Source: Candidatus Cryptobacteroides faecigallinarum
Lineage (GTDB): Bacteria; Bacteroidota; Bacteroidia; Bacteroidales; UBA932
Direction of reading: 5' to 3'
NCBI GenBank assembly: GCA_017695015.1
Contig: JADIMD010000124.1
Location: forward strand, 1-46,764
Length of the DNA: 46,764 bases
Shown: positions 13,673 through 42,785 of the stretch, one piece after another
How the letters are laid out: the number at the start of each line of letters is the position of its first letter
Position numbering within the stretch: the stretch's first letter is position 1
Position numbers and translations under genes: made by a program
The notes under the pieces: generated by a model
Told to the model about the DNA's origin: nothing
Database searches by the model: none
Seen by the model: only the letters and a program-made list of their open reading frames with translations

Positions 13673-13680
13673 TACCTTTG
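13673..13680 (+). promoter_or_regulatory. -7 element of the SusC operon promoter
   Basis: TACCTTTG matches TAnnTTTG and lies 34 nt before the susC-like start codon. About 19 nt upstream is only a T-run (TTTT), so the promoter may need help. No sigma/anti-sigma pair or hybrid two-component regulator gene is adjacent to the operon. Confidence 0.6.
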
Positions 13681-13714: not shown

Positions 13715-16700
13715 ATGACAAGACACTGCATAATTCTATTATTATTCAGTCTGCTGTGTTTCAACGCCCTTGGTCAGGACAGAACATCGCTCCCCCAGAA
13801 AAGGACACTCATCGGTGTAGTGAAGGATGAAGCCGGGAAAGGTCTTCCGGGCGCTGTAGTGTATGTCAAGGATCATGAAACCATCGGCACGGAAACAGAC
13901 AAATACGGCAACTTCTCACTTCAGAACATTCCAGAAGGCAACCAGACCATCATTTTCTCCATGTTGGGCATGGAGGAAGTGCAGATCGCCTATACAGGAC
14001 AGGAAAGCACGGTCGTCACGCTGAAAGAAGAAGCGGCAACCCTTAATGATGTGGTGGTGACCGGTATCATCACAAGGCACAGGAACAGTTTCACTGGATC
14101 GGCATCAACCTTTTCCGGACAAGAGCTGAAAATAATCGGCAACTCGAATATTCTCCAGAGCCTCAAGACTTTGGAGCCATCCATGAACATTGTGGAGAAT
14201 AATCTGCGTGGAGCCGACCCCAACACCATGCCTGACCTCGAAATAAGGGGTAAGACAAGTATTGTCGGCGAGATTTCTTCCGACTACGAGAATGTCCCCA
14301 ACCAGCCTCTGTTCATACTGGACGGAATGGAGGTGACCATAGAGACCATCATGAACCTCAACATCGACAGGGTGAAGAGCGTGACTGTGCTCAAGGATGC
14401 CGCATCTACAGCTATCTACGGCTCCAAGGCGGCCAACGGAGTCATTGTCGTCGAGACCATACCTCCAGAGCCCGGACAGCTCCGGGTAAGCTACAGCGGC
14501 AATTTCGGAGTACAGTTCCCTGACCTGAGCGACTACAACCTGATGAATGCGGAAGAGAAGCTGACTTTCGAGCGTCTGGCCGGGAGATACACTTCGGACA
14601 ACGAGGCGGAATCCCCAGAACAGGATGCCCTCGACGCCCTGTATTATTCAAGGCTCAAGGCTGTGCGCCAAGGCGTAGACTCATACTGGCTTGCCGAACC
14701 GCTGCGCACAGTATTCAACCACTCCCACAACCTGTATATTGACGGCGGAGACCAGAACATGCAATACGGGATTGGAGTGAACTATGGCAATGAAAAAGGC
14801 GTGATGAAAGGGTCAGACCGCGACATCGTGGGAGGCAATATCCAGGTAAGATACCGAAAGGGAAGTTTCACTTTTGCCAACAATTTCAACATGAGCCTCG
14901 TGAACTCCGCCACGGAACCGGTATCATTCAGCCTGTTCGCAAACGCCAATCCATACTACAGGAAACGGAACCCTGACGGATCAGTGCCGCTCCTGCTCGA
15001 AGACATCGACATTGCGGGACAGTCAATATACAATCCCCTTGCTCTGTTCAACATACCGAACACCAACAAGACCAACGACCTGACATTTTCCGACCAGATC
15101 GACCTGACATGGAGATTCTGGAACGCCTTCACCATCAAGGGGACATTTGGGATCAGCAACAATTCCTCAGAGACCGAGGCGTTCCAGTCCCCGGACCATC
15201 CGGACTTCATAGGAAGTCTTGCAGACAAGAAGGGACTGTACACCACAAGCAAGACCAACAATTTCAGCTATAACGGAAGAATTGTCTTCAGCTACGGAAA
15301 ACTGTTCGGCGCACATCATAATTTCAGTGCAAATGCTGCCTGGGACTTCAGTAACAAAGATACCAAAAGAGGAGGATACAGCGTATCCGGATTCGTCGGC
15401 AACCAGCACCAGAATCCTGAATTCTCGGCAGGTTTCAACCAGGGGGACAAGCCGGAGTATTCTACCACAAGAGCCAGATCAACAGGTTTCCTGTTCAGCG
15501 CCAACTACGCATTCAAGAGCAGATATATGCTTGACCTGAACTACAGGCTTGACGGGTCCTCGGTATTCGGGGCACAAAGGATGTTCACAGGCACATGGTC
15601 TGCAGGCGTGGCATGGGACATAAGCAACGAGGCATGGTTCAAAGTGAAGTGGATTGACTTCTTCAAACTGAGATACTCCATCGGAAACCCGGGGAACCAG
15701 AACTTCGACGCATATATGTCATCCGGCATATATGAATACAACCCTGACTACACCAATATCTTCGGGGAAAGCGCGATAATCCAGAAGGTGGCCAACCGCA
15801 ACCTGGCATGGCAGAAGACACTGGACCAGAACTGGGGACTCGACTTCACCGCATGGGACGACCGTATAAGGCTCGGCGTGGACTACTACTACAAGAACAC
15901 CGACCCTCTGCTCGTATCGATATCCCTTCCGCCATCTGCCGGACAGACCAGGATATACACCAACCTCGGAGGACAGATCTCGCAGGGATTTTCCGGAACA
16001 TTGAATATAGTGGTCCTCAGGACACAGACCATGAGACTTGGTGTGAACTTCACATTTGCCCAGAACAGGTCGAAATATGTCAATATCGGGGACAGCCTGG
16101 AGTTCATGAACGAAAAAGGAAGCGCTTCAGTGCTGCGCAGATATTACGATGGTGCAAGCCCTGATGACATCTGGGCCGTCAGGTCTCTCGGAATAGACCC
16201 TGCCACGGGACGGGAAGTATTCCTGACAAAGGAAGGAGAATACACATTCCAGTATGATGCCGACGATGAAGTCAAGGTAGGCTCCACCGCTCCGGATCTG
16301 GAAGGCATCATAGGAATATCTTTCTACTGGGGACAGTTCTCTGCCGCAATCAATTGCCGTTACGAGCTGGGAGGACAGATATTCGCCTCCGCCCTGTATG
16401 AAAAAGTTGAGAATATCAGTGAAGAGGAGCTCTATTATAATGTTGACAGACGCGCGCTCTACGACAGATGGCAAAAGCCCGGAGACAACGCGCGCTTCAA
16501 GGCTATCGATAACCTCGATTCGACCCCGATGTCATCGAGATTCGTACTGGACAACAATGTATTCACATTGGAATCCATTTCCGTAGGATATGACACCGCA
16601 GCCAGATGGCTACAGAAAATCAAGGTTCAGGGAGCATCCATCAGACTGTATGCCAACAACATATGGAGAATAGCCTCAGTTAAGGAGGAAAGAGGTATCG

Positions 16701-16750
16701 AATATCCTTTCTCAAACAGTATCTCTATGTCCATCAGCCTGAGGTTCTGA
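13715..16750 (+). CDS. SusC/RagA-type TonB-dependent outer-membrane transporter
   Basis: A signal peptide (about 1-20) is followed by a CarboxypepD-like domain (LIGVVKDEAGKGLPGAVVYVKD), a short linker ending in LNDVVVTG, the plug domain (to about 250, with DLEIRGKTSI and the SusC-type VLKDAASTAIYGSKAANGVIVVET), and a beta-barrel ending in SISLRF. These proteins form the channel beneath a SusD lid and import large ligands across the outer membrane with energy from TonB. At 1011 residues it is normal. It opens a six-gene operon whose only enzyme is a protease, so peptides are a plausible ligand, as for RagA of Porphyromonas gingivalis; this is inference. Confidence 0.95.
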   Translation: MTRHCIILLLFSLLCFNALGQDRTSLPQKRTLIGVVKDEAGKGLPGAVVYVKDHETIGTETDKYGNFSLQNIPEGNQTIIFSMLGMEEVQIAYTGQESTVVTLKEEAATLNDVVVTGIITRHRNSFTGSASTFSGQELKIIGNSNILQSLKTLEPSMNIVENNLRGADPNTMPDLEIRGKTSIVGEISSDYENVPNQPLFILDGMEVTIETIMNLNIDRVKSVTVLKDAASTAIYGSKAANGVIVVETIPPEPGQLRVSYSGNFGVQFPDLSDYNLMNAEEKLTFERLAGRYTSDNEAESPEQDALDALYYSRLKAVRQGVDSYWLAEPLRTVFNHSHNLYIDGGDQNMQYGIGVNYGNEKGVMKGSDRDIVGGNIQVRYRKGSFTFANNFNMSLVNSATEPVSFSLFANANPYYRKRNPDGSVPLLLEDIDIAGQSIYNPLALFNIPNTNKTNDLTFSDQIDLTWRFWNAFTIKGTFGISNNSSETEAFQSPDHPDFIGSLADKKGLYTTSKTNNFSYNGRIVFSYGKLFGAHHNFSANAAWDFSNKDTKRGGYSVSGFVGNQHQNPEFSAGFNQGDKPEYSTTRARSTGFLFSANYAFKSRYMLDLNYRLDGSSVFGAQRMFTGTWSAGVAWDISNEAWFKVKWIDFFKLRYSIGNPGNQNFDAYMSSGIYEYNPDYTNIFGESAIIQKVANRNLAWQKTLDQNWGLDFTAWDDRIRLGVDYYYKNTDPLLVSISLPPSAGQTRIYTNLGGQISQGFSGTLNIVVLRTQTMRLGVNFTFAQNRSKYVNIGDSLEFMNEKGSASVLRRYYDGASPDDIWAVRSLGIDPATGREVFLTKEGEYTFQYDADDEVKVGSTAPDLEGIIGISFYWGQFSAAINCRYELGGQIFASALYEKVENISEEELYYNVDRRALYDRWQKPGDNARFKAIDNLDSTPMSSRFVLDNNVFTLESISVGYDTAARWLQKIKVQGASIRLYANNIWRIASVKEERGIEYPFSNSISMSISLRF

Positions 16751-16786
16751 CGGAGCAACAGCATTGACAATTTGACAACATCTGAC

Positions 16787-18265
16787 ATGACACACAATAG
16801 AATATACATAATTGGACTTCTTTTTGCGGTCTTGATGACGACTGCCGGCTGCCGCGGTTGGCTTACGGTAGATTCCGAAGACAGGATAATGGAGGAAGAG
16901 CTTTTCAAGAATACTGACGGATTCTACACCGCCCTCAACGGAATCTATGTGGATCTTGTAAACGAGAATCTGTATTCAGGCACATTCGGACCGTCCGATC
17001 CGGACATACTCGCCCAATATTACAACACCAGTGCAGACAACCATATGGACGGCTCGCTTGCCCTGTACCAAAACGAAGCCAAAAGACTAGCCGTCAGCAA
17101 CGCATGGACCAGGGCATACCTTATGATACTCAATGCCAACAAGATCATAGAACACTGCGAAAGCGGCAGGGGCAGTGTTCTGAACGACACGGACTACAAT
17201 ATCATAAAAGGAGAATGTCTAGGACTGAGGGCACTGCTGCATTTTGAACTGTTCAGATATTTCGGTCCTGTCTATACGGTATCCCCCGGAGCAGACGCCA
17301 TTCCGTATATGGATGTATCCGACCCACAGGTAAAACCCGTGCTGAAAGCAACGGAAGCCGCAGAAAAGATACTCAATGACCTTGAAACGGCGGAAGGCCT
17401 GCTTGCCGCAAGCGACCCTGTAAGGACACTCGGCAAGAACGAGACCGACAGCGGAAACAGGAACCTGTACAGCTACCGCAACCTCAGATTCAACTACTTC
17501 GCAGTGAAAGCACTCGCCGCAAGAGTCAATATGTATCTTGGCTATAGCGCCAACAAGGAAGAAGCACTGAGACTGGCGGAAGAAGTGATATCCGAAGCCA
17601 GGGACTTCTTCCCGTTCTCCACCAGGGATGAGGTAACAGGACAGGCGGCGACCGGAGCCGTAGTGGAATCCGCAGAAGACAGAATCCTGTCTTCTGATGT
17701 GCTGTTCGCCGTTTACAATGTACATCGCGGAGAGGACATATATGAGGCATATTTCTCCAACTCCCTTGAAGCTACCAACCTGCTTGCCATCTCGGCTAAC
17801 GGCTACAGGAACATGTATCCTGAAGAAAGCGATCTGAGGACATACCAGTGGGAAAGCACTAAGGATGTGTTAGGGAATGACATAATGAGCTTCATCAAAT
17901 ATGAGGCGATGGAAGTGGACGGGAAAAACTATCCATACATGATACCGGTACTCAGGATGTCGGAAATGTATCTCATAGCAGCCGAATGCTATGCCGACAA
18001 TGGGAATGATGACCTTGCGTACGCACGGCTGAACACTGTCAGGAACGCAAGGCAGACATCTTCCGTCTCGTCTAATATCCTGAGCAACATCGAAAGCGAA
18101 TATATCAGGGAATTTGTCGGAGAAGGACAGCTCTTCTGGTATTACAAAAGAAACAACATGCAGTCGATACCTGCCCTCTACGACAGATCAAGACCCAACA
18201 TCAGCATCAGCACGGCAAACTATCTGTTTGAACTTCCTCAATCCGAAGACGGATTCAGGGACTGA
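16787..18265 (+). CDS. SusD/RagB-type surface lipoprotein
   Basis: The ORF track starts at a TTG five codons upstream, but the ATG at 16787 gives a clean lipoprotein signal ending MTTAGC|RG. The mature N-terminus (WLTVDSEDRIMEEELFKNTDGFYTALNGIY) and the late RMSEMYLIAAECYA and AYARLNTVRNAR helices are typical of SusD/RagB proteins. These use TPR-like helices and cap the SusC channel at the cell surface to capture the ligand. The 492-residue length is usual. It starts 36 nt after susC, so the pair is cotranscribed. Confidence 0.94.
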   Translation: MTHNRIYIIGLLFAVLMTTAGCRGWLTVDSEDRIMEEELFKNTDGFYTALNGIYVDLVNENLYSGTFGPSDPDILAQYYNTSADNHMDGSLALYQNEAKRLAVSNAWTRAYLMILNANKIIEHCESGRGSVLNDTDYNIIKGECLGLRALLHFELFRYFGPVYTVSPGADAIPYMDVSDPQVKPVLKATEAAEKILNDLETAEGLLAASDPVRTLGKNETDSGNRNLYSYRNLRFNYFAVKALAARVNMYLGYSANKEEALRLAEEVISEARDFFPFSTRDEVTGQAATGAVVESAEDRILSSDVLFAVYNVHRGEDIYEAYFSNSLEATNLLAISANGYRNMYPEESDLRTYQWESTKDVLGNDIMSFIKYEAMEVDGKNYPYMIPVLRMSEMYLIAAECYADNGNDDLAYARLNTVRNARQTSSVSSNILSNIESEYIREFVGEGQLFWYYKRNNMQSIPALYDRSRPNISISTANYLFELPQSEDGFRD

Positions 18266-18297
18266 CCCTGACCGGAAGACCGACAAACCGAAAAATT

Positions 18298-19092
18298 ATG
18301 AAAAGGCACATGATAAAGCATATCGGATTAACCCCAAAGGAGCACCTGTTCCCGACGGTCATCATCGTTTTTCTTGCACTCTCCGTCTCATGCTCCTCAG
18401 AGCTGGAGACCTACAGTGGAGTATCCGGAGTCTATTTCGCCATGAATGCTGGCTCCACTGCAATCAACGCGGACACCATGTATAGCGAGACTTCTTCCCT
18501 GCCGTTCATAGTGACCAGATCTACCGATTCCACATTCAATCTCAAGGTGAAGATACTGGGGGCAATATCAGACCGTGACAGGCAGGTTTCAATAGAAGTA
18601 GTGCCCGAAGAGACGGATGCCCTCGACGGAGATTACGACAGGCTGTCAGACAACTATGTGTTCCCTGCCGGAACCGTATTCGGGAACATTCCCATCACTT
18701 TCCACCGCACTCCGTCTCTGGAGGGAAAGGAAAGGAAACTGACAGTCAGACTTGTTGAAAACAACGACTTCGCCCTGCCGATCAGGCTATGGCGCAACTC
18801 CTCTGACGAATATGTAGATGTTGTGAAACACACTATAGTCTTCAGCGACAAATATGTCCAGCTTCCGGGATACGAGACCGGATATTTCGGACCGTTCTCG
18901 GAAAAGAAGATGAAGCTGATGCTTGAAGTGCTCGGACTGGACATATCGGACTTCAACGAAAAAATGCCATACACGCGGGCCAAGGCTCTTGGGCAACAGT
19001 TCGACAGATATCTTAAAGAACAGAAAGCTGCCGGAACCCCTGTCCTGGAGGATGACGGCACAGAAATGACTGCCGGAGAATATATCTATTGA
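18298..19092 (+). CDS. DUF4843 lipoprotein
   Basis: A lipoprotein signal (ALSVSC|SS) leads a 264-residue protein whose start (ETYSGVSGVYFA) and strand pattern (SLPFIVTRSTDSTFNLKVKILG, then AGTVFGNIPITFHRT) fit the DUF4843 family. Such proteins are frequent third partners of SusC/SusD pairs and probably surface-exposed Ig-like accessory ligand binders. Family assignment is by pattern recognition; the biochemical role is unknown. The gene begins 32 nt after susD and runs directly into the PKD-like gene. Confidence 0.8.
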   Translation: MKRHMIKHIGLTPKEHLFPTVIIVFLALSVSCSSELETYSGVSGVYFAMNAGSTAINADTMYSETSSLPFIVTRSTDSTFNLKVKILGAISDRDRQVSIEVVPEETDALDGDYDRLSDNYVFPAGTVFGNIPITFHRTPSLEGKERKLTVRLVENNDFALPIRLWRNSSDEYVDVVKHTIVFSDKYVQLPGYETGYFGPFSEKKMKLMLEVLGLDISDFNEKMPYTRAKALGQQFDRYLKEQKAAGTPVLEDDGTEMTAGEYIY

Positions 19093-19109
19093 CACTCAGA
19101 CACTCGAAG

Positions 19110-20690
19110 ATGAAAACCGAATACATACCAATGCCTGCCCTGCGGCTGCTTACCCTGGTCATGATTCTCGCCGGAGGAATGGCCCTTGTCTCTGGCTGCT
19201 TCAAGGACCTGGGCAACTATGACTACACGGATATCAATGAAGCAGTGATCGGGGACGAGGGATTTTCCGTCCCGTATAATATCCGTATCAACGAAATCCT
19301 GAGAATCGAGCCTGATATTACATTCACACTCGACAAGGAAGGTACAGGAGACTATTCATACGAATGGGTGGCAGTCGGACAGACCATGTTCAGAGGAGAG
19401 CGCTTCACCATCGGCACAGAAAAGATTCTGGACTATGTGATGAAACTTGAGTCTGACAACTACATACTGTACCTCAAAGTCAAGGACAATGCCACCGGTA
19501 TCGTTTACAGCAAGGATGTAGAACTCAATGTGATGTCTCCATATTCCGTAGGTTGGCTACTGGCAGGTGAAACAGACGGTGCGGGACAGGTTGACATGAT
19601 GTCCATCAGCAATGACATCATATTCTACCGAAACACTCTGGAGATGGAGGGTATTACCTTATCCCCCATACACTGCATTTGGGTAGACAATGACACATGG
19701 ACAGCGGATGACAGGCTGTATGCAGGAACCGTGAATGGGTCATACAAATTCGACAGGTCCTCGTTCACAGGTTCGGAAGAGACCGACATCAGGCGCTCTT
19801 TCGCCGTAGATCCAGGGGACGATACATATGATATAACTGACATACAGCAGATTATCTCTGACAATACAGGCAGCATCAGAGTTGCCGCAATCATCAATTC
19901 AAGGGCACACATCATCTCGTCTGAAGGCGGACTGATCGAGAACAGTTTCAGTTTTTATAAAGATGCGGACGGGAACATGGCAGATTTCAGAGTAGCGGAC
20001 AGGATCATCTGCAACCATCGCCAGAGCGGCTGCAGAACAATGGTATTCTATAACACGGATGCTAAGGAATTCTGCTATATCAGCGGACTCACAATAGAGG
20101 GAATGAAGACTCTTGGAGACGGGGAAAACGATGAATTCAGCTGGAACACCAAGGCGGATTTCCCCGATGAAAACGGGCTTGACTTCGTATATGCAGTCAA
20201 TTCTTTCTTCAGTGACGGACAGTCAGCTGCTATCCTGAAAGGACCGGTTTCCGGGACATACTACATCTACTGCATCACTGCCAACCGCGGAGAACCAAGC
20301 ATCACCAAAAACGGAAGATACACCGTGGACAACAGTATCGCGCCAGGATTCGGGTCCTCTCCATGCTACGCAATGACTACAACATACGGATACTTGCTCT
20401 ACGCATCCGGCAACACTCTCTACGGCTACGACTTCAGGAAATCTCCGCAGCAATGCACCGTACTCAGGACTTTCGATGCCCCGATATCATATATGATGGT
20501 CGACACCGAGACCGACGAAAAATACGATGACTGCATCTATGTGGCAACATACGACGAGAGCCGCAGCCGCAGCGGGACATTGTACAAGATGCAGATGGTG
20601 GACTCTCCAGACAGAATTGAAACGTCAGAACCCGAGAAACTGGAGGATGGACTGCTGAAAATAACGGATATGTATTACAAGTCATTCTGA
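19110..20690 (+). CDS. PKD-like surface lipoprotein
   Basis: The track begins at a TTG at 19089, but the ATG at 19110 gives a clear lipoprotein signal ending LVSGC|FK. The mature protein starts KDLGNYDYTDINEA, the usual opening of PKD-like lipoproteins paired with DUF4843. Two Ig/PKD-like domains (to about 165) come before a larger beta-rich region with repeats of about 45 residues, possibly a propeller. It probably sits with SusC/SusD at the surface and helps to bind the substrate. Only 17 nt separate it from the DUF4843 gene. Confidence 0.8.
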   Translation: MKTEYIPMPALRLLTLVMILAGGMALVSGCFKDLGNYDYTDINEAVIGDEGFSVPYNIRINEILRIEPDITFTLDKEGTGDYSYEWVAVGQTMFRGERFTIGTEKILDYVMKLESDNYILYLKVKDNATGIVYSKDVELNVMSPYSVGWLLAGETDGAGQVDMMSISNDIIFYRNTLEMEGITLSPIHCIWVDNDTWTADDRLYAGTVNGSYKFDRSSFTGSEETDIRRSFAVDPGDDTYDITDIQQIISDNTGSIRVAAIINSRAHIISSEGGLIENSFSFYKDADGNMADFRVADRIICNHRQSGCRTMVFYNTDAKEFCYISGLTIEGMKTLGDGENDEFSWNTKADFPDENGLDFVYAVNSFFSDGQSAAILKGPVSGTYYIYCITANRGEPSITKNGRYTVDNSIAPGFGSSPCYAMTTTYGYLLYASGNTLYGYDFRKSPQQCTVLRTFDAPISYMMVDTETDEKYDDCIYVATYDESRSRSGTLYKMQMVDSPDRIETSEPEKLEDGLLKITDMYYKSF

Positions 20691-20730
20691 ACGCGAGACG
20701 AGACAAAACAAACACATAACAAAATTTAAA

Positions 20731-23433
20731 ATGAGATTGAGACATTTTTTGACAGCAGCCTGCGCAATGCTGCTGATCACCGCTATCGGAGCCGAAGCCG
20801 GTGAAAAGAAGCCAGTGAAACCGAGAAAGAAGAAGAAAGGGGAAGTGGAACAGGTCGACACTGCAAAAACAGAGAAGAAGGACAAATACAAGGAAGCCAT
20901 CAAGGATGCAAAAGTATATGATGGTCTCATCAAGGCATATGTCACCCCAAAAGAGGAGCTTTATTTCGAGATAACCCCAGAAAACACTGGACATTTCTAT
21001 CTTCTGACCAACAGGATAACCGAGACAAGCGATGACGCCGCATTTGCTGCGGGGGAACTCATCGGGAATCCTATCATGTTCAGGATATCCGTGGACACAT
21101 CATATGTGCATTTCTATTCAGTAAACACATTCAGAAAAGTCCGTGAAGGGGATCCAATTACTGAGGCATTCGAGAGAAACAACAGAGAACCTATCATCAA
21201 GTCATTCAAGGTCAAGGCATTCAGAAAAGACACATCCTACCTCATCGACATGACATCGTTCTTCAAGTCCAATGAGAAGCTTATCACACCTCTCCAGTAC
21301 AGTCAGAACATCATGGGAACGAAAAGCGGCTCATACGATGCAGATGCCTCAAAAATACTGGAAGTCAAATCATTCCCGAAGAATGTCGAAATCTCCAGCC
21401 AGATCTGTTTCCAGTCTGAGCCTACGCCATATCTGGTCGAGATACGCAGGTCCATTCTGCTGCTTCCTGACGAGCCGATGAAGACCCGATACCAGGACAA
21501 CCGGGTCGGATACTTCTACTCTTCTTACCAGTATTTCACTTCAGATGCTGACAGAGTTGATGTAAAGAGCATCATCCACCGCTGGAGACTCGAGCCAAAG
21601 CCCGAGGATATGGAGAAATATTTCAACGGGGAACTGGTTGAACCGGAGAATCCTATCGTATTCTATGTGGACTCTGCATTCCCTGACAAATGGAGGGAGG
21701 CTGTCAAGCAAGGAATCGAGGACTGGCAACCTGCATTTGAGGCAGCCGGCTTCAAGAACGCCATCATCGCCATGGACTATCCTGCCGACAGCACCGGATT
21801 CGATCCTGATGACATAAGATACAACTGCATAAGATACATCGCAAGCGATATAGCCAACGCCTCCGGTCCAAGCTATGTAGATCCGCGTTCGGGAGAAATT
21901 CTTGTTGGTGATGTCAACTGGTACCACAATGTAATCTCTCTTGTCAACAACTGGAGATTCACTCAGACAGGCGCTGTCGATCCGCGCGTCAGGAAAGCCG
22001 TCTTCGACGATGATGTCATGGCAGAATCACTGAGATATGTGGCATCACACGAAATCGGGCACACGCTCGGGCTTATGCACAACATGGGGGCAAGCTACTC
22101 GTTCCCTGTCGATTCTCTCCGCAGCCCGTCCTTCACACAGAAGTACGGCACTACCCCGAGCATCATGGATTATGCCAGGAACAATTACATCGCCCAACCC
22201 GGCGACTTGGAAAAGGGTGTTCGGCTTGTTCCCCCTCTTGTAGGCGTATATGACATATACGCAATCAACTGGGGCTACAGGCTATTCCCGGGTGACCTTA
22301 CCCCTGAGCAGGAAAAAGTGAAACTCAATGCCATCATCGCCGAGAAGGCAGGAGACCCGATGTACAAATTCGGGGCACAGCAGATTTTCAACACAATAAG
22401 CCCTGCAGACCAGATGGAAGACCTTGGCAACGACCACATGAAAGCAGGAGACTATGCTGTCGCGAATCTTAAGAGACTGGTGCCGCATCTTGCGGAATGG
22501 TTCTACAAAGAAGGCGATGACTACATGGAAATCAAGATCAAGTATTTCAACCTTGCCAACCAGTACAACCGCATCATGATGCATGTCTACCCGTATCTGG
22601 GAGGAGTATTCTTCAACGACCTTGTCCAGGATGGAAGCGACGACGGCATCGCAAGGGTATATGTAGACAAGAAGACACAGAAACGGGCGATGCAATGGCT
22701 TGTCAACCAGGCTCTGACATTCCGTGAATGGCTGCTTCCCGCATATATTCAGGATATCACGGGATACGGCTCCGGTGATCTCGACGGATACCAGAGAAGC
22801 CTGATGGCAAAAATGTTCGGAGCCGCCACTCTCACATTCATAGCCGAAGGGGAACGCTCCGGACAGGAAGGGCTCTACACACTGGACGGATATATGAAAG
22901 ACGCAGTAAATACAGTCCTTGGCAATACGCTCAAGGGCAGAAAACTGACCATAGAGGACATGAACATGCAGAATGCAATGGTGGCATCCCTTGCCGAACT
23001 TGCAGGAGTCATCGAGGTTCCGAAAGATGCAATCGCCCTTTCAGGAATGGGAGGACAGTCCATATCAGGCAGCTACCGTGCAGATATAGCCGATGGTAGC
23101 CCTGTACTCGGAAGCGGCTCTTTCGAAGAAGAAGCTCTACAGTGCAGGCTGGCTCTACAGAAACAGATGGAGGCAGCCGCCGGCGAGCCGTTCTGCTGTT
23201 TCGGTCATGACCACAATGCTTCAAGCAGGACCGCAGGAGACATGACCACATCTTATTTCCGCCAGAACAATGACCTGCCGAAACTCTCGGGAGCACTTGC
23301 CCGTCCTATCGCCCTCAAGGAACTGAACAGGGTGATCTCCATATACAAGAGTGCAAGGAATTCCGGAGACAGCCGCACCAAAGCTTTCTATGACTACCAG
23401 ATCGACAAGATCGAGAGGGCAATGAACAAGTAG
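20731..23433 (+). CDS. Exported zinc metalloprotease (DUF5117/DUF5118, Met-zincin)
   Basis: A signal peptide (about 1-22) is followed by a very basic linker (PVKPRKKKKGE), DUF5118 and DUF5117-like domains (to about 400), then a metzincin catalytic domain. Zinc ligands and base are in HEIGHTLGLMH (H440, E441, H444, H450), and the likely Met-turn is in PSIMDYARNNY. These 850-900-residue proteins are widespread in Bacteroidota and usually encoded near SusC/SusD pairs; their natural substrates are little known. There is no lipobox, so it is periplasmic or released. In this operon it is the only hydrolase, which points to protein or peptide as the captured substrate. Confidence 0.9.
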   Translation: MRLRHFLTAACAMLLITAIGAEAGEKKPVKPRKKKKGEVEQVDTAKTEKKDKYKEAIKDAKVYDGLIKAYVTPKEELYFEITPENTGHFYLLTNRITETSDDAAFAAGELIGNPIMFRISVDTSYVHFYSVNTFRKVREGDPITEAFERNNREPIIKSFKVKAFRKDTSYLIDMTSFFKSNEKLITPLQYSQNIMGTKSGSYDADASKILEVKSFPKNVEISSQICFQSEPTPYLVEIRRSILLLPDEPMKTRYQDNRVGYFYSSYQYFTSDADRVDVKSIIHRWRLEPKPEDMEKYFNGELVEPENPIVFYVDSAFPDKWREAVKQGIEDWQPAFEAAGFKNAIIAMDYPADSTGFDPDDIRYNCIRYIASDIANASGPSYVDPRSGEILVGDVNWYHNVISLVNNWRFTQTGAVDPRVRKAVFDDDVMAESLRYVASHEIGHTLGLMHNMGASYSFPVDSLRSPSFTQKYGTTPSIMDYARNNYIAQPGDLEKGVRLVPPLVGVYDIYAINWGYRLFPGDLTPEQEKVKLNAIIAEKAGDPMYKFGAQQIFNTISPADQMEDLGNDHMKAGDYAVANLKRLVPHLAEWFYKEGDDYMEIKIKYFNLANQYNRIMMHVYPYLGGVFFNDLVQDGSDDGIARVYVDKKTQKRAMQWLVNQALTFREWLLPAYIQDITGYGSGDLDGYQRSLMAKMFGAATLTFIAEGERSGQEGLYTLDGYMKDAVNTVLGNTLKGRKLTIEDMNMQNAMVASLAELAGVIEVPKDAIALSGMGGQSISGSYRADIADGSPVLGSGSFEEEALQCRLALQKQMEAAAGEPFCCFGHDHNASSRTAGDMTTSYFRQNNDLPKLSGALARPIALKELNRVISIYKSARNSGDSRTKAFYDYQIDKIERAMNK

Positions 23434-23543
23434 GCGTCCCGGCTACAGCATAAGACAGAACCGGAGAGAGAAAGCGGCATGAAAGAAGAGAAGCAACTGC
23501 TTAAAAGGAGAAGAGACAATATTAACTATAAGATTATGATATT

Positions 23544-24644
23544 ATGAAAACAACACGAACAATCCTGATGACCGTCGCCGCAATGCTGGCAATGGCATCC
23601 GTGTCCTGCACAAAGGACGAAAACACAGGTAATGGAGAAGATACGACTTACACTCTTTCTCTTGCAGACCCGCTTGACAAGGAGATTATCCTGACCGACA
23701 ACGAAGTCAGTACAATTTCTGTCAATATCAACACCAACCTGAGAGCAGACCAGATCTCCGTAGAGCCTAAGGAAGATCAGAAATGGTGTACCGCCACTCT
23801 TTCCGATGACGGCAAGACCATCACTGTAATTCTGGGAGAAAGCGCCGGAGAAAAAGATCAGACAGCGACATTCATTGTCTCCGCTACGGTTGATGGTGTC
23901 GAGCCTTTCGAGTTCACTGTCACCAGAAAGGCGACAAAATATGTCATTGAATCAATAGAGGGAGAAGGTCTGGACTTCAAAGAAGACCAATACATGCCCG
24001 GCGGCTATCTGATCTCATATAATGCATCGGCAAGTTCACCCGCCAGTCTCACGATTACGGTGAATACCAATGCGCCGTCATGGTATTTCGCAGACAGCAA
24101 CATGGCCATGGATCCGGACACATATGAGCCGATAGAATGGTACACAGTTGACAGAAGAAGCGGAAGAGACGGTGAAACAATCACCATCACATTCAAGGAG
24201 AATACCAGTGCAAGCAACAGGACATCGATGTTCTATTTCGATGTTGTTCCATTTGAAGGAGACTACCCGTTCAGCGATGTCAGCGTCACCGTCACTCAGG
24301 ATGCGGCACCATCAACTTATGTAAAACTCTATGATGCGGATGGCGCCAAAATCGAATCCGGGAGCGAAGTGCAAATTGGGAAAGACGGTGAGTCATTGGA
24401 TTACACGATAGAAACTGACTTTGGTATAAGTTCTATATTCGCTAACCCGGGAACCTCCGATCCGGCATTTGACGGAGAAAACGACTGGGTAACCGGAGGT
24501 CAGGCAATATGGGACCCTACCAGTTTTTCCATCAACGCACAGGAAAACAGCACAGGCAAAGAGAGGGCTGTAGACCTGGTTATCACTCCGGCAGGAAGTG
24601 ACACGGAGCTCTTCCGGCTGTCAATTGTCCAGGCAGGGGAATAA
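23544..24644 (+). CDS. BACON-like lipoprotein
   Basis: A lipoprotein signal (ASVSC|TK) is followed by three Ig-like repeats of about 100-110 residues. Each ends in a VT-rich strand such as FEFTVTRKA, VSVTVTQDA or FRLSIVQAG, the hallmark of BACON-type domains. These are substrate-binding or spacer modules on the surface of Bacteroidota. The 366-residue protein closes the SusC operon; a strong hairpin follows. The 110-nt gap before it contains a possible 22-codon reading frame (23479-23547) whose stop overlaps this start as ATGA. Confidence 0.8.
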   Translation: MKTTRTILMTVAAMLAMASVSCTKDENTGNGEDTTYTLSLADPLDKEIILTDNEVSTISVNINTNLRADQISVEPKEDQKWCTATLSDDGKTITVILGESAGEKDQTATFIVSATVDGVEPFEFTVTRKATKYVIESIEGEGLDFKEDQYMPGGYLISYNASASSPASLTITVNTNAPSWYFADSNMAMDPDTYEPIEWYTVDRRSGRDGETITITFKENTSASNRTSMFYFDVVPFEGDYPFSDVSVTVTQDAAPSTYVKLYDADGAKIESGSEVQIGKDGESLDYTIETDFGISSIFANPGTSDPAFDGENDWVTGGQAIWDPTSFSINAQENSTGKERAVDLVITPAGSDTELFRLSIVQAGE

Positions 24645-24746: not shown

Positions 24747-24778
24747 TTGCACGGCTACAGAATATTTGCCTATATTTG
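24747..24778 (+). promoter_or_regulatory. Promoter of the yeiH-like pseudogene
   Basis: TTGC (24747-24750), 20 nt, TATATTTG (24771-24778) fits the Bacteroidetes consensus well. The promoter appears intact although the gene behind it is broken. Confidence 0.65.
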
Positions 24779-24799
24779 CAGCCCGTTCTGAAAGCCAGG

Positions 24800-25304
24800 A
24801 TGGGTTATTTAATTCTAAAGCATTTACTTATGCCATCCGAAGCAAGGAAAAGCATGCTCCACGGGATTCTCCTCATCGCGCTGTTCTCATGCGCAGCATT
24901 CTACATCGCGGATTTCGACTTCATCCAAAAACTGTCTTTCAGCCCACTGATTGTCGGCATCGTACTTGGAATGCTGTATGCCAATTCATTGCGCAACAAT
25001 CTCCCTGAGACCTGGGTCCCGGGCATCAAGTTCTGCTCAAAACAGATACTGCGGCTGGGAATCATCCTCTACGGGTTCAGGCTCACTTTCCAGAGTGTCA
25101 TAGCTGTCGGCTTCCGTTGTGGGCTTCATCAACAATTTCGACACATTCCTCCTGACCATGGCAATGACAGCCCTCGGCGCTGAGACCAGCATCGACAAGT
25201 TCCGTCAGGCCGGAGCCAAGCCATTCATCCTTGCCGCCATACTTTTTATATGGCTCATGGGAGGCGGCTATCTCCTCGCCCGCTACCTCGGACCTCTGCT
25301 GTAA
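24800..25304 (+). pseudogene. YeiH family putative sulfate exporter, internal deletion plus frameshift
   Basis: The first reading frame encodes the normal N-terminal third of a YeiH/UPF0324 membrane protein (SPLIVGIVLGMLYANS, then RLGIILYGFRLTFQSVIAVGF). The second frame, from 25119, encodes the normal C-terminal end (VGFINNFDTFLLTMAMTALGAET, then LFIWLMGGGYLLARY). Intact relatives have about 330-350 residues; roughly 190 are missing between these parts and the frame shifts at the join. At the break, GTCGGCTTC and GTGGGCTTC lie side by side, suggesting deletion near short repeats. The start could also be ATG 24830. Family members are annotated as putative sulfate exporters; the broken product is unlikely to work. 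A sequencing or assembly error cannot explain so large a loss by itself. Confidence 0.85.
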
Positions 25305-25553
25305 CCGCTTCTGTCCCTTATGGTCTGATTGACAAGATGAAGTTCCGGAAGCACAATCCGGATCTCCTTGTTCGCGTCTTCATCTTTCCACCATACGACG
25401 AAATTGACTTTAGCCTCGGCAATAAAATATCCTTTATTTCTGAAATCAGTCAACAGTGTGCTTCGTCTATGACAAACCTGGCTATCCGCCCTCTCTCGGA
25501 CAGAGGGCACAAATTTAATGAATTCTTCAATCTGTTATCCGGATTTAATTTAC
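25305..25553. other. Intergenic stretch without a supported gene
   Basis: This part of a 294-nt gap holds a hairpin GCCCTCT/AGAGGGC (25488-25508). It also holds a minus-strand open frame (25283-25510) with a fairly protein-like core (GYFIAEAKVNFVVWWKDED) but no family I recognise and an overlap with the pseudogene end. It may be a gene remnant; I do not call it. Confidence 0.4.
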
Positions 25554-25561
25554 TATCTTTA
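25554..25561 (+). promoter_or_regulatory. -7-like element of the small beta-barrel gene
   Basis: TATCTTTA differs from TAnnTTTG only in the last base and lies 37 nt before the start codon. No clear -33 box is seen. Confidence 0.4.
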
Positions 25562-25598
25562 GGGCATTGACTGATTATCGGTTTTTAATCAAAATACT

Positions 25599-26897: not shown

Positions 26898-27350
26898 TTA
26901 AAGTGCTGCGACAATCTTACGGACATTCTGCAACTTTTCCATAAACGATTTATTCCGTTTGGCTGTAAGCATATTGTATCTTGCCTGCATCTGCAACAGT
27001 GATTCTGCTGGAATATCCAATGCGGCCTCTACAAGCAGTACAAGTTCTGTATTTACCTGTCTTTTACCGTTCAGTACTTCATTAAGTAATGTGTATGAAA
27101 TCCCCATTTCTGCAGCCAGCTGTTTCTGGGAGATTCCTCTATACTCCAGTTCATCTTTCAGCACTTCCCCAGGATGTGTCAGTCGGAAAGGCTCAAGATT
27201 ATTTGCTATCATATTCGGGTCTGTCCCCATTGATGGATTCTCGATAAGGTCCTTACGGAATTGGGCAAGGTCAGACAGAAAAGACTTGTATTTCTTTGCA
27301 AGCCGCTTCATGTTCTTTACGAATACGGCTGAATATAAAATATCTACCAT
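26898..27350 (-). CDS. Truncated RelE-type toxin fused in frame to a HigA-type antitoxin
   Basis: Residues 1-46 (MVDILYSAVFVKNMKRLAKKY and on to ENPSMGTDP) match the start of Bacteroidota RelE/ParE-type mRNA-cleaving toxins, which normally continue for about 60 more residues. From Met47 (MIANNLEPF) the sequence is a complete HigA-like antitoxin with THPGEVLKDELE, an XRE helix-turn-helix (ISQKQLAAEMGISYTLLNEVLNGKR) and the C-terminal NKSFMEKLQNVRKI. The toxin start overlaps the upstream antitoxin stop as TAATG, so it is an original operon junction. An in-frame deletion that removed the catalytic end of the toxin and any toxin gene before higA explains this. HigA may also start independently at 27212. 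The toxin part should be inactive. Confidence 0.75.
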   Translation of the reverse strand: MVDILYSAVFVKNMKRLAKKYKSFLSDLAQFRKDLIENPSMGTDPNMIANNLEPFRLTHPGEVLKDELEYRGISQKQLAAEMGISYTLLNEVLNGKRQVNTELVLLVEAALDIPAESLLQMQARYNMLTAKRNKSFMEKLQNVRKIVAAL

Positions 27351-29964: not shown

Positions 29965-30017
29965 TAAATTTGTGACGGCTCATATACGGGAAACCCTCCG
30001 TGAGCGGTGCAAAAATA
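29965..30017. promoter_or_regulatory. Divergent -7 elements for the C69 peptidase and the exported-protein/pheS operon
   Basis: Plus strand: TAAATTTG (29965-29972), 56 nt before the C69 ATG. Minus strand: TATTTTTG (rc of 30010-30017), about 55 nt before the ATG at 29955. Both match TAnnTTTG, so transcripts would overlap as divergent leaders. -33 boxes are unclear. Confidence 0.4.
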
Positions 30018-30028
30018 GAAATAAGTAT

Positions 30029-31810
30029 ATGAAAAAACAAACAGTTGTCATTTCAATCGTTGCTCTTTCATTGCTGGCTTGCTACAACAGCATGGCTTGC
30101 ACCAATATTCTTGTGACCAAAGGAGCGAGCACGGACGGGTCCAACATGATTTCATATGCAGCTGATTCGCATCAGCTGTTCGGGGAGCTTTACTTCCATC
30201 CTGCAGCATACTGGGCGGAAGGGGCGATGCTCGATGTAACCGAGTGGGACACAGGGAGATTCCTCGGCAGGATTCCGCAGGTGCCTTACACATTCAAGAC
30301 CGTAGGCAACATGAACGAGCATCAGCTGATAATCGCGGAAACCACCTACGGAGGACGGGGACTTGCCGACACCACAGGGATAATGGACTATGGCTCACTG
30401 ATATACATCACTCTCCAGAGGGCAAGGACAGCCAGGGAAGCCATACAGACAATCGTCGAGCTTGCCAACACATACGGGTACTGCTCCGAAGGGGAATCGT
30501 TCTCGATTGCAGACAAGGACGAAGTCTGGGTGATGGACCTTATCGGGAAGGGGACAAAAATGGAAAACGGTGTGAATGTACGCAAGGGCATCGTATATGT
30601 GGCCCGCAGGGTTCCTGACGGATATATCTGCGCACATGCCAACCAGGCCAGAATCAGCACCTTCCCTCTCGACGACCCTGACAACTGCATCTACGCCCCA
30701 GATGTGATCTCGTTTGCAAGAGAAATGGGATGGTACGACGGGCCTGACGAGGAGTTCAGTTTCTGCGACACCTACAATCCGCTTAACTTCGGCGGAATGA
30801 GAGGCTGCGAAGCCCGTGCATGGAGCGCATTCAACATCCTGTGCGACGGGAAGTTCACCTTTGAGGACGAAAACGGCGACACTGTCACAAAAGACGCATA
30901 CGACTACATAGATTACGCAATGGGATACGATGCCGGCAAACGCTTCCCTCTGTTTGTGAAGCCGTCACGCAAAATCAGCGTAAAGGATGTGGCAGATGTG
31001 ATGAGGGACCATTTCGAGGGGACTCCAATGGACATGACCAAGGACATCGGAGCAGGAGGGAATGCCCTTCCTTACAGGTGGCGCCCGATGGATTTCGAAT
31101 ATGAAGGCAAGACATATGTAAATGAAAGGGCAATCGCGACACAGCAGACCGGATTCTGGTTCGTGGCACAGTCCAGGGCTGAATTCCCCGACATGATAGG
31201 GGCGCTCATATGGTTCGGGACAGACGATGCCGCCACTTCATACCTGACTCCGATATATGTCGCGACTTCGGAAGTGCCCGAATCATTCAAAGTCGGCAAC
31301 GGCAACATGGTCACATACTCCCCTACTTCCGCCTTCTGGATGTGCAACCGCGTAGCCAACGCCTGCTACAGGATGTACAACATCATGGAGCCGACAGTGA
31401 GGGCGGAGATAGACAAATGGGAATACGGACAGATGGAGAATGTCAGGAAAGTGGACATGACCGCAATGGAAATTTACAAGAAGGCACAGGAAGCACCGCG
31501 AAAAATGATCCGCCGCAACGACAAGTTGAGACGCACTCCTGACCCGTACTCGGAGCTAAAGGCATATCTCACAGAATATACGGTACAATCGGCACAGGAA
31601 ATATTCCAAAAATGGACAGAGCTGGAGACATTGCTTTTGGTCAAATACATTGACGGAAATGTCAAGGCGCAGAATCCTGACGGCTCCTTTGTAACCAACC
31701 CATACACCGACCGCATCCCTGACGGGATCACCCAGCCGGGATACACTGAAAAATGGAAAGAATGCGTGGCCAATGACCATGGACAAACGCTGGAGCAAAA
31801 AGAACTTTAG
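30029..31810 (+). CDS. Exported C69 family dipeptidase
   Basis: From the ATG at 30029 (MKKQTVVISIVALSLL) a signal peptide ends at SMA|C, exposing Cys24 as the N-terminal nucleophile. This is the self-activating arrangement of Ntn-hydrolase dipeptidases (family C69, PepD-like). The mature start CTNILVTKGASTDGSNMISYAAD and the later NMNEHQLIIAETTYGGR motif are diagnostic. The ORF-track start 19 codons upstream is unsupported. At 593 residues it is of the longer, secreted Bacteroidota type. It cleaves dipeptides in the periplasm, so it can finish the work of the S46 enzymes. The TonB-receptor gene follows after 60 nt, with no visible promoter between them. Confidence 0.92.
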   Translation: MKKQTVVISIVALSLLACYNSMACTNILVTKGASTDGSNMISYAADSHQLFGELYFHPAAYWAEGAMLDVTEWDTGRFLGRIPQVPYTFKTVGNMNEHQLIIAETTYGGRGLADTTGIMDYGSLIYITLQRARTAREAIQTIVELANTYGYCSEGESFSIADKDEVWVMDLIGKGTKMENGVNVRKGIVYVARRVPDGYICAHANQARISTFPLDDPDNCIYAPDVISFAREMGWYDGPDEEFSFCDTYNPLNFGGMRGCEARAWSAFNILCDGKFTFEDENGDTVTKDAYDYIDYAMGYDAGKRFPLFVKPSRKISVKDVADVMRDHFEGTPMDMTKDIGAGGNALPYRWRPMDFEYEGKTYVNERAIATQQTGFWFVAQSRAEFPDMIGALIWFGTDDAATSYLTPIYVATSEVPESFKVGNGNMVTYSPTSAFWMCNRVANACYRMYNIMEPTVRAEIDKWEYGQMENVRKVDMTAMEIYKKAQEAPRKMIRRNDKLRRTPDPYSELKAYLTEYTVQSAQEIFQKWTELETLLLVKYIDGNVKAQNPDGSFVTNPYTDRIPDGITQPGYTEKWKECVANDHGQTLEQKEL

Positions 31811-31870
31811 ACATCTTGCCAACCTTGAGGGCTGACAAGCAAACAATAACACACAACAATTTTCTGGATT

Positions 31871-34858: not shown

Positions 34859-34893
34859 GAACACATAATGTTTAACTTAATCCCCAAACAACC

Positions 34894-36213
34894 ATGAAAA
34901 GGATCATTATCTTTATGATGGTGGCAGCCGCAATGGTAGCCGTATCATGCGAAAAGACACCTTCCAACCCACCGGTGGAGGTACAGATCTCGCTTATGCT
35001 CGACGGTGAAATCTATGCTGAAGACGGCATCACCGTTGCTCTTGCTTCACAGGGCAATTCTGCATCATACGAAGCAGTCACTACCGCAGGAATTGCCAAA
35101 TTCACCGTAATTCCAGGGCTTTACAACGCCACTGCATCATTCAGGACAACTGAAGGTACCACCAACACCGTCTACAACGGCACTGCAGCAATAACAGTAG
35201 TGTCCGGAGGAGAAAACGCATTCGAGCTGAACCTTTCGACCTCCCAGACCAACCCTCTGATCATCAAGGAACTGTACACCGGAGGATGCCAGAAAAATGA
35301 CGAGAGCGGATATTACAGGCACGACAGCTATGTGATCCTATACAACAACAGCGATGCAGAGATCGACATCAGCAATGTGGCATTTGCATTTGCGACTCCG
35401 GCCAACAGCAATGCAACCAACAAATATATCGTTGACGGCGAGCTGACATATGCTTCCCAAGGCTGGATTCCTGCAGGATGGGACATCTGGTGGTTCGACT
35501 CGCAGGTAACCCTCGCCCCTTACTCCCAGATCGTTGTCGCAATAGACGGGGCTATCAACCACACCGAGACCTACACCAATTCAGTTGATCTGAGCGACGG
35601 AAGCTACTATGCGATGTATGATCCGGAAGCGTTCGGAGAGAAATACATGCAGGCCCGCTATCCAAACCCTTCCGACGCCATCCCGTCCAGCCACTATCTG
35701 CAGACCTATCTGTACGGAATGGGAAATGCATGGCCAATCTCGGACACGAGTCCTGCATTCTACATCCTCGAATATGCCGACATCGAAGCTTATTCCATGG
35801 ATGATGCTAACTACGACAGGACTGAAAATGCAAAACTCCCTGTAGTCAAGGTGAAGAATGAGTGGGTACGCGATGCAGTGGAGGTGTTCACTGCAGGTAA
35901 AGAAGCGGATAACCAGAAGAGATTCCCTGCAAACATAGATGCAGGCTATATATATTACACTACGAACTATGGCTACACCATCTACAGGAATGTGGACAAG
36001 GAGGCTACCGAGGCCCTTGCCGAGAATGAAGGCAAGCTTGTCTACAATTACACGGGTGGAACTGACGAAGTAGACGCAACTTACGGCAACACCGACCCTT
36101 CAGGAATCGATGCGGAAGCTTCAATTGCCAATGGAGCCCATATCATTTACAAGGACACCAACAATTCTTCAGCAGACTTCCACCAGAGAAGGGTAGCTTC
36201 TCTGAAGAAATAA
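34894..36213 (+). CDS. DUF4876 surface lipoprotein
   Basis: A lipoprotein signal (MVAVSC|EK) precedes an Ig-like or CarboxypepD-like repeat (about 30-110) and a larger domain starting PLIIKELYTGGCQKNDESGYYRHDSYVILYNNSDAEIDISNVAFA, the pattern of DUF4876 with a lamin-tail-like core. Length is 439 residues. It lies 35 nt after the receptor gene and is probably its surface-exposed partner, in the role SusD has for SusC. The biochemical function is undescribed as far as I know. Confidence 0.82.
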   Translation: MKRIIIFMMVAAAMVAVSCEKTPSNPPVEVQISLMLDGEIYAEDGITVALASQGNSASYEAVTTAGIAKFTVIPGLYNATASFRTTEGTTNTVYNGTAAITVVSGGENAFELNLSTSQTNPLIIKELYTGGCQKNDESGYYRHDSYVILYNNSDAEIDISNVAFAFATPANSNATNKYIVDGELTYASQGWIPAGWDIWWFDSQVTLAPYSQIVVAIDGAINHTETYTNSVDLSDGSYYAMYDPEAFGEKYMQARYPNPSDAIPSSHYLQTYLYGMGNAWPISDTSPAFYILEYADIEAYSMDDANYDRTENAKLPVVKVKNEWVRDAVEVFTAGKEADNQKRFPANIDAGYIYYTTNYGYTIYRNVDKEATEALAENEGKLVYNYTGGTDEVDATYGNTDPSGIDAEASIANGAHIIYKDTNNSSADFHQRRVASLKK

Positions 36214-36248
36214 ATGTCTGCCGGGACTGATTCATAAAAGACAAGGAC

Positions 36249-37859: not shown

Positions 37860-37872
37860 ATTTACAGGAAAG

Positions 37873-40695: not shown

Positions 40696-40724
40696 TTTTA
40701 CTACGGATTATAACAGACTGAATT

Positions 40725-42746: not shown

Positions 42747-42785
42747 TCCGCTATCGCTTCGATGAATCTGTAAAAGAATTCTGAA

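Follow-up and report, generated by a model that had tools for sequence, protein, structure and literature searches.

A SusCD operon with a Met-zincin in Candidatus Cryptobacteroides faecigallinarum: a candidate system for polypeptide import

Introduction

The usual interpretation of a SusCD system is that of a glycan locus. An operon in the genome of Candidatus Cryptobacteroides faecigallinarum raises the question of what such a system takes up when the only enzyme that it encodes is a metalloprotease. Our analysis of the whole stretch of DNA available around it (46,764 nucleotides of contig JADIMD010000124.1; hereafter, the window) leads us to favour protein or peptide acquisition through the SusCD pair, with a zincin that would cut in the periplasm, as the best and a reasonably probable explanation. 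Peptide import by SusCD systems has precedents: it is established for RagAB and has been found for BT2263-64 (PMC11992087, PMC10132118, PMC7782687).

Organization of the operon

Six genes make up the operon (13715-24644, + strand), in the order SusC, SusD, DUF4843, PKD_2, Met-zincin and triple-BACON lipoprotein, and a weak promoter-like element precedes them:

13673..13680, + strand: TACCTTTG, weak promoter candidate that matches the -7 consensus of Bacteroides, TAnnTTTG, 35 bp upstream of the SusC start (from sequence)
13715..16750, + strand: SusC/RagA-type TonB-dependent transporter, 1011 aa, without STN signalling domain (Pfam CarbopepD_reg_2 and Plug)
16772..18265, + strand: SusD/RagB-type lid lipoprotein, lipobox TAGC (Pfam SusD-like_3, 1.2e-14; SusD_RagB, 5.2e-12; N-terminus)
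18298..19092, + strand: DUF4843 lipoprotein, 264 aa, lipobox SVSC, putative surface accessory binding protein (Pfam, 1.4e-19)
19089..20690, + strand: PKD_2 lipoprotein, putative surface binding protein (Pfam, 6.2e-28; lipobox Cys invariant in the alignment)
20731..23433, + strand: DUF5118-DUF5117-DUF4953 Met-zincin, predicted soluble periplasmic protease (Pfam DUF4953, 1.9e-101; DUF5117, 2.6e-51; DUF5118, 1.3e-8)
23544..24644, + strand: triple-BACON lipoprotein with lipobox SVSC, putative surface binding protein (Pfam BACON x3, 2e-16)

The initial annotation had proposed this gene set, and all six genes were confirmed where it had placed them. The DUF4843 and PKD_2 genes overlap by 4 bp, and the other gaps from SusC to the BACON gene measure 21, 32, 40 and 110 bp in gene order; the listed start codon of SusD is TTG, an ATG being possible at 16790. 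The adjacent SusC (carboxypeptidase-regulatory-like domain and plug) and SusD lipoprotein identify the pair as SusCD nutrient-uptake genes. A Pfam scan of 13715-24644 returned no CAZyme, esterase, lyase or sulfatase domain, and hence the operon does not classify as a polysaccharide utilisation locus; the earlier statement that it encodes no glycosidase, lyase, esterase or sulfatase is borne out. Two other MAGs (L004, L005) and two more genomes from within the genus (L113, L115) have the identical six-gene order, which argues against a chance arrangement. Within the operon SusC is the best conserved protein and the zincin the second, whereas the BACON lipoprotein evolves fast: it shares 41-68% identity with its positional orthologues, the zincin 73-93%.

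The proposed import mechanism assigns a role to each of these products. The DUF4843, PKD-propeller and BACON proteins are predicted outer-membrane lipoproteins, probably surface-exposed, and would capture polypeptide there. SusC and its SusD lid would then bring oligopeptides or small proteins across the outer membrane with TonB energy, and the Met-zincin, secreted to the periplasm, would cleave the imported chains. Dipeptidyl peptidases might finish the digestion, for example the S46 enzymes whose genes lie 4 kb upstream and 18 kb downstream. Of the genome's three S46 peptidases, two are encoded in the window, as are a C69 and an M16. A point against the mechanism is that the operon contributes no surface protease, so that large proteins would need prior cutting by something else.

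Exchange of the gene following PKD_2

The SusCD-DUF4843-PKD_2 family, to which the window operon belongs, is defined here by the order SusC-SusD-DUF4843-PKD_2, immediately followed by a cargo gene. The arrangement described in the initial annotation does recur: within three genes downstream of PKD_2 in 65 mapped loci, a zincin occurs in 15, a thioredoxin-fold protein in 39, another peptidase (S9, M16 or Asp) in four and a GH92 pair in one (L081), and eight loci have no co-directional cargo gene. The non-zincin peptidases comprise S9 dipeptidyl peptidases and an Asp protease with an M16. Of the 44 cargo thioredoxins, 41 retain the WCxxC motif, and two loci of the family also carry a DsbD-type membrane thiol transporter. 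Across the family, the dominant cargo is therefore not the protease but a disulfide oxidoreductase. As a control, 40 SusCD loci without PKD_2 were hand-picked from the same genomes; these contain no zincin (0/40) and six thioredoxins (6/40), among ordinary CAZymes (alginate lyases, GH20, GH97, GH76 and sulfatases being present). In the family survey, the coordinates place a zincin within about 6 kb of PKD_2 in 17 of some 61 matches.

The trees of SusC and of the zincins add a historical component to this exchange. The window SusC nests inside a thioredoxin-cargo clade, and therefore its zincin has probably replaced a thioredoxin; more generally, both trees make it seem that zincins entered the slot after PKD_2 several times. 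Both cargo types occur within a single operon at three loci (L066, L109, L112), and zincins also adjoin SusCD pairs without PKD_2 (L085, L100, L101, L103, L104, L105). A phylum-wide rule linking PKD_2 to zincins was rejected, since only 5 of the 297 genomes sampled across the phylum have PKD_2, and most PKD_2 loci carry a thioredoxin instead; one Bacteroidales genome (G106) has 17 PKD_2 matches. The earlier description of the metalloprotease as the only enzyme holds for the window operon and its sub-clade, but most relatives have a thioredoxin-fold protein in its place. The idea of a peptide-utilisation counterpart of polysaccharide loci gains partial support from the peptidase and thioredoxin cargo and from the scarcity of CAZymes (one locus in 65), even if the protease is the minority cargo.

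The gene after PKD_2 can thus encode either a periplasmic disulfide oxidoreductase or a metalloprotease, the latter alone or as an active/pseudo pair, and for this reason the imported substrates of the family are probably polypeptides, in many cases disulfide-bonded. The swap predicts the import of folded, disulfide-bonded polypeptides that need opening in the periplasm. If this is true, DUF4843 and PKD_2 followed by a thioredoxin or a zincin constitute a signature of peptide or protein import recognisable from genomes, and many loci of unknown substrate would have to be re-annotated.

The single GH92 locus bears on a different reading, the uptake of glycoproteins or mucin glycopeptides, with the zincin trimming the peptide part and glycosidases provided by other loci. 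The GH92 family is associated with N-glycan mannose, mucin or glycans are the supposed ligands of BACON domains, and the genome harbours at least 19 SusD genes, so that glycosidases would be available in trans. In B. theta, moreover, a locus (BT4240-50) joins SusCD to an M60-like mucin metallopeptidase, and glycopeptide import is proposed for it (PMC11992087). We deem this reading unlikely, however, given that the operon has no CAZyme and the family a single locus with such cargo, that the Pfam profile of the zincin lacks an M60-like domain and the enzyme looks periplasmic, and that glycans leave the prevailing thioredoxin cargo unaccounted for. The interchange of disulfide oxidoreductase and protease, and the fast divergence of the lipoproteins, could also be explained by detoxification or scavenging of antimicrobial peptides (defensin-like peptides or disulfide-rich bacteriocins), destroyed by reduction or proteolysis after import. 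Yet no immunity or resistance gene was recognised, importing toxic peptides through SusCD would be hazardous, and we regard this scenario as highly improbable.

The Met-zincin

The window zincin retains an intact zinc motif, HEIGHTLGLMH at residue 440, and an intact Met-turn, SIMDY, in agreement with the HExxHxxGxxH signature of DUF4953 (PF16313). Its N-terminus bears a Sec signal peptide and no lipobox, and hence the enzyme is probably periplasmic and acts after import, not on the surface. A lipobox matched by regular expression at Cys11 was discarded: it leaves just 10 residues on its N-terminal side, a Sec-like site between AEA and G comes after it, and the cysteine is absent in most relatives. 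The AlphaFold model (pLDDT 81) found no match in the PDB at E<0.001 over the whole protein, and M1-aminopeptidase was too weak a hit (E about 0.06) to be accepted as a structural relative; an enzyme with no solved relative over its length is of interest in itself. The literature searched, from which most subscription papers fall out, yielded no characterised DUF4953 member and no relevant paper on DUF4843, PKD_2, DUF4953 or DUF5117.

DUF4953 zincins are present in 160 of 297 sampled Bacteroidota genomes, and copies unlinked to PKD_2 or SusCD exist (L102; L068 in the same genome, among genes without SusCD). The DUF4953 family is therefore not specific to uptake, and its abundance and the L068 copy are compatible with a polysaccharide locus devoid of CAZymes of its own, in which SusCD would take a glycan, as most characterised SusCD systems do, and the zincin would be an envelope quality-control protease or a hitch-hiker. 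This reading, which we judge slightly less likely still than glycopeptide uptake, has to contend with several zincin recruitments into one slot, with the short spacing, with the lack of zincins in the control loci and with a conservation second to that of SusC alone.

A further oddity of the family lies in its tandem zincin pairs, all of which (13/13) combine an active enzyme with a motif-less pseudo-zincin. Building on polypeptide import as the favoured function, we tentatively suggest that DUF4843 and the PKD-propeller may mark an undescribed and widespread class of polypeptide-dedicated SusCD systems, with a slot swapped between disulfide oxidoreductase and Met-zincin, and that in many of its members the active zincin always comes with a dead partner for substrate binding or regulation.

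Comparison with known systems

By sequence, the solved chains closest to the window SusC are the SusC homolog 8aa4 and RagA (6sli). The similarity to RagA is significant (the initial annotation had invoked peptide import by RagAB), but 8aa4 scores higher, and SusC similarity was set aside as a predictor of substrate. The RagAB system of Porphyromonas gingivalis, also a SusC/SusD-type pair, imports oligopeptides; it has been studied as a transporter pair, its peptides being supplied by extracellular gingipains, whereas the window operon also encodes the DUF4843, PKD-propeller and BACON lipoproteins and the Sec-secreted Met-zincin. The BT2261-2264 complex of Bacteroides thetaiotaomicron includes two extra lipoproteins. 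Its SusC, BT2264, matches the window SusC weakly (61 bits), and neither DUF4843 nor PKD_2 could be tied to the complex by single-sequence or profile searches of the PDB, the DUF4843 profile finding none of its chains; bound peptides are reported for this SusCD (PMC11992087, PMC7782687). At TRV642_0198-0209 of Flavobacterium collinsii and at BT4240-50, SusCD is accompanied by peptidases and oligopeptide or glycopeptide import has been proposed, but the peptidases belong to families (S9, S37, M24 and M43; M60-like) other than the DUF4953 zincin of the window, and the available portions of the reports describe neither a PKD_2/DUF4843 core nor a thioredoxin/zincin exchange (PMC10132118, PMC11992087). 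The levan and dextran utilisomes (SusCD, SGBP and surface glycoside hydrolase) share with the window a SusCD core with extra surface lipoproteins; the window enzyme, on the other hand, is a protease with a Sec signal, not a surface lipoprotein. The modular SusCD-DUF4843-PKD_2 class and its pseudo-protease pairing did not appear in the literature searched, and this importer family, a large one, is apparently undescribed.

Among the accessory proteins, DUF4843 gave nothing significant in PDB searches, only faint hints of Calx-beta. The AlphaFold model of PKD_2 (pLDDT 81) predicts an N-terminal PKD/Ig-like domain and a beta-propeller, and its best Foldseek match is BT1487 of B. theta (4r5o), a protein that presumably lies near a corrinoid-uptake locus. 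This match would suit the acquisition of protein-bound cofactors or metals, in which the cell would import or strip a carrier protein or peptide of host or microbial origin, and a protease or thioredoxin would free the cofactor; bound ligands could indeed be released by proteases and thiol reductants. However, the mapped PKD_2 operons revealed no recognisable BtuB-like, heme, HmuY-like or siderophore gene, and the propeller match speaks of fold, not of ligand. We give cofactor acquisition as little credence as the antimicrobial-peptide scenario.

Promoter and regulators

Upstream of SusC, TACCTTTG has no exact -33 TTTG partner and is not listed by a scan with the full two-part consensus; a Bacteroides -33/-7 promoter was accordingly rejected, only the -7-like element being present. 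The Pfam scan of the neighbourhood upholds the earlier remark that no regulator adjoins the operon, the nearest being a sigma-54 response regulator (1888-3057) and an HTH_3 protein (26898-27350). With no adjacent FecR/ECF gene and no STN domain on its SusC, the operon falls outside the class controlled by ECF-sigma/FecR; its lack of a regulator is a trait of the clade. Loci with FecR upstream encode longer SusCs, with an STN domain in both of those checked (L072, L096).

Composition and conservation of the operon

The initial annotation had described a SusC/SusD operon with a metalloprotease as its only enzyme and no adjacent regulator, and this description is confirmed, since its genes, catalytic motif, lack of CAZymes and distant regulators were all verified. 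Domain matches on the + strand recover the six named genes in the order first given, and the nearest recognisable regulators lie far upstream and past the operon.

13715-24644 (+): operon of SusC, SusD, DUF4843, PKD_2, zincin and BACON genes
1888-3057: sigma-54 response regulator
26898-27350: HTH_3 protein

The zincin, a DUF5118-DUF5117-DUF4953 protein, has both its HEIGHTLGLMH motif and its SIMDY Met-turn intact, and the domain search detected no CAZyme, esterase, lyase or sulfatase domain in the operon. The window is contig C118 of an assembly of 2.08 Mb in 125 contigs, 84% complete. Two uncultured Bacteroidales MAGs (L004, L005) share the identical six-gene order, as do two more genomes (L113, L115) that belong to the window's genus. 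Across these orthologues SusC (81-96% identity) and the zincin (73-93%) are best conserved, followed by SusD (68-89%), and the DUF4843 (56-79%), PKD_2 (52-76%) and BACON (41-68%) lipoproteins diverge faster, a pattern that would fit surface lipoproteins accompanying a more protected enzyme.

Inspection by eye and by pattern identified plausible lipoboxes on the SusD, DUF4843, PKD_2 and BACON proteins, and a Sec-type signal at the zincin N-terminus. The model of the PKD_2 protein combines a PKD/Ig-like domain with a beta-propeller; its nearest structure is BT1487, a match indicative of fold type only because TM-scores are low (0.35-0.43). For the zincin, most of the chain is modelled with confidence (pLDDT 81, pTM 0.82), and no PDB structure matched the model at E<0.001; by sequence, only the motif region matches metzincins.

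Cargo of the PKD_2 loci

Both PKD_2 and DUF4953 were surveyed across identical genome samples: 198 genomes from the order, 297 from the phylum and 150 from the family. PKD_2 occurs rarely among the phylum genomes (5/297) and is commoner near the window (27/150 family genomes). Mapping of 65 PKD_2 loci under a common rule (at most three co-directional genes after PKD_2, gaps of at most 350 bp) showed that the SusC/D-DUF4843-PKD-DUF5117 order does recur, but that most loci (39/65) carry instead a thioredoxin-fold protein among these cargo genes. A zincin is present in 15/65, the window included, an S9, M16 or Asp peptidase in four and a GH92 pair in one, and eight lack a co-directional cargo gene. 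Three further loci (L070, L114, L116) have a zincin at the same place and are left out of this count because the local search gave their PKD_2 gene no label. For a subset of loci, Pfam bore out the thioredoxin and peptidase calls, and a tally of other neighbours revealed few CAZymes. One genome of the order (G106) has 17 PKD_2 matches (e.g. L071-L081), mostly in loci that combine ECF/FecR with a thioredoxin-fold protein, a strong expansion of the system. In the window's own genome, a thioredoxin-type PKD_2 locus on contig C115 has a DNA/RNA non-specific endonuclease gene downstream (L067:15025-16608).

As a control, 40 SusCD loci without PKD_2 were hand-picked over six of the same genomes; they contain no zincin (0/40), six thioredoxins (6/40), and enzymes such as alginate lyases, GH20, GH92, GH97, GH76 and sulfatases. 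Fisher tests against this control (zincin, p = 4e-4; thioredoxin, p = 6e-6) are too optimistic, because many loci are orthologues, the samples are non-random, some PKD_2 loci were fetched for having a zincin, the window itself is counted and one control locus (L180) has a DUF4843 gene. The family survey, in which 17 of about 61 PKD_2 matches (counted from coordinates) lie about 6 kb or less from a zincin, is less biased.

Among cargo thioredoxins, 41/44 retain WCxxC. In each of two loci, a pair of thioredoxin genes behind PKD_2 flanks a DsbD-like transmembrane gene (L122:7022-9100 and L127:9572-11485), that of L122 with a DsbD_TM match of 4e-21. Zincin and thioredoxin share one operon in L066 (own genome), L109 and L112, and we infer that polypeptide is a substrate class open to both.

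All 13 loci with tandem DUF4953 zincins (L069, L070, L085, L107, L108, L110, L111, L114, L116-L120) keep HExxHxxGxxH in one zincin and have lost it in the other, and on the zincin tree most pseudo-zincins form one group, L069 and L070 being exceptions. This pairing bears on the family and not on the window, because the window has a single zincin, active by motif.

Exchange of cargo and proposed role

On the SusC tree (75 rows, quick method, midpoint root), the window clade is nested within a ten-member set (support 99) in which five loci have thioredoxin cargo; this set falls in turn within one of 20 members, 14 of them thioredoxin loci. On the most economical reading, a zincin took the place of a thioredoxin in the window clade. 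The zincin tree agrees in grouping this clade with L101, a locus from a different family of the order, where a zincin adjoins a SusCD pair without PKD_2. Two other sets of zincins, the tandem clade and L066/L112/L069, stand apart. Well-supported SusC branches require the zincin label to change at least four times, the exact number of recruitments being uncertain because of midpoint roots, the quick SusC tree and some long branches.

The operon most likely serves to import oligopeptides or small proteins, which would then be cut in the periplasm, in keeping with the peptide-utilisation locus first proposed. Earlier reports describe peptide import by RagAB and BT2263-64 (PMC11992087, PMC10132118, PMC7782687) and propose oligopeptide or glycopeptide import for peptidase-bearing SusCD loci (PMC10132118, PMC11992087). 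In the open-licence literature we found no description of a DUF4843/PKD_2 class with an exchangeable thioredoxin/zincin slot, nor of active/dead zincin pairs; a prior one may exist elsewhere.

In other genera FecR lies upstream of most PKD_2 loci, often with an ECF gene; SusCs directly after FecR have a median of 1120 aa, and both of two tested bear an STN domain. Neither FecR upstream nor an STN domain is present for the window SusC (1011 aa) or its L115 orthologue. The window operon must be controlled in trans, or may be constitutive.

Other features of the window

A second, different TonB/peptidase locus lies downstream, adjoined by a fimbrillin-like gene, and a PF03601 gene is apparently broken, its C-terminal part following the break in another frame from the N-terminal part. 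Two of the genome's three S46 peptidases sit in the window.

24776-25573: apparently broken PF03601 (YeiH-like) gene
29972-45008: C69 peptidase, TonB receptor, DUF4876, DUF6850, M16 peptidase, Fer4/HMA membrane protein and S46 peptidase genes
45164-46708 (-): fimbrillin-like (Mfa_like_1) protein with a Fib_succ_major domain
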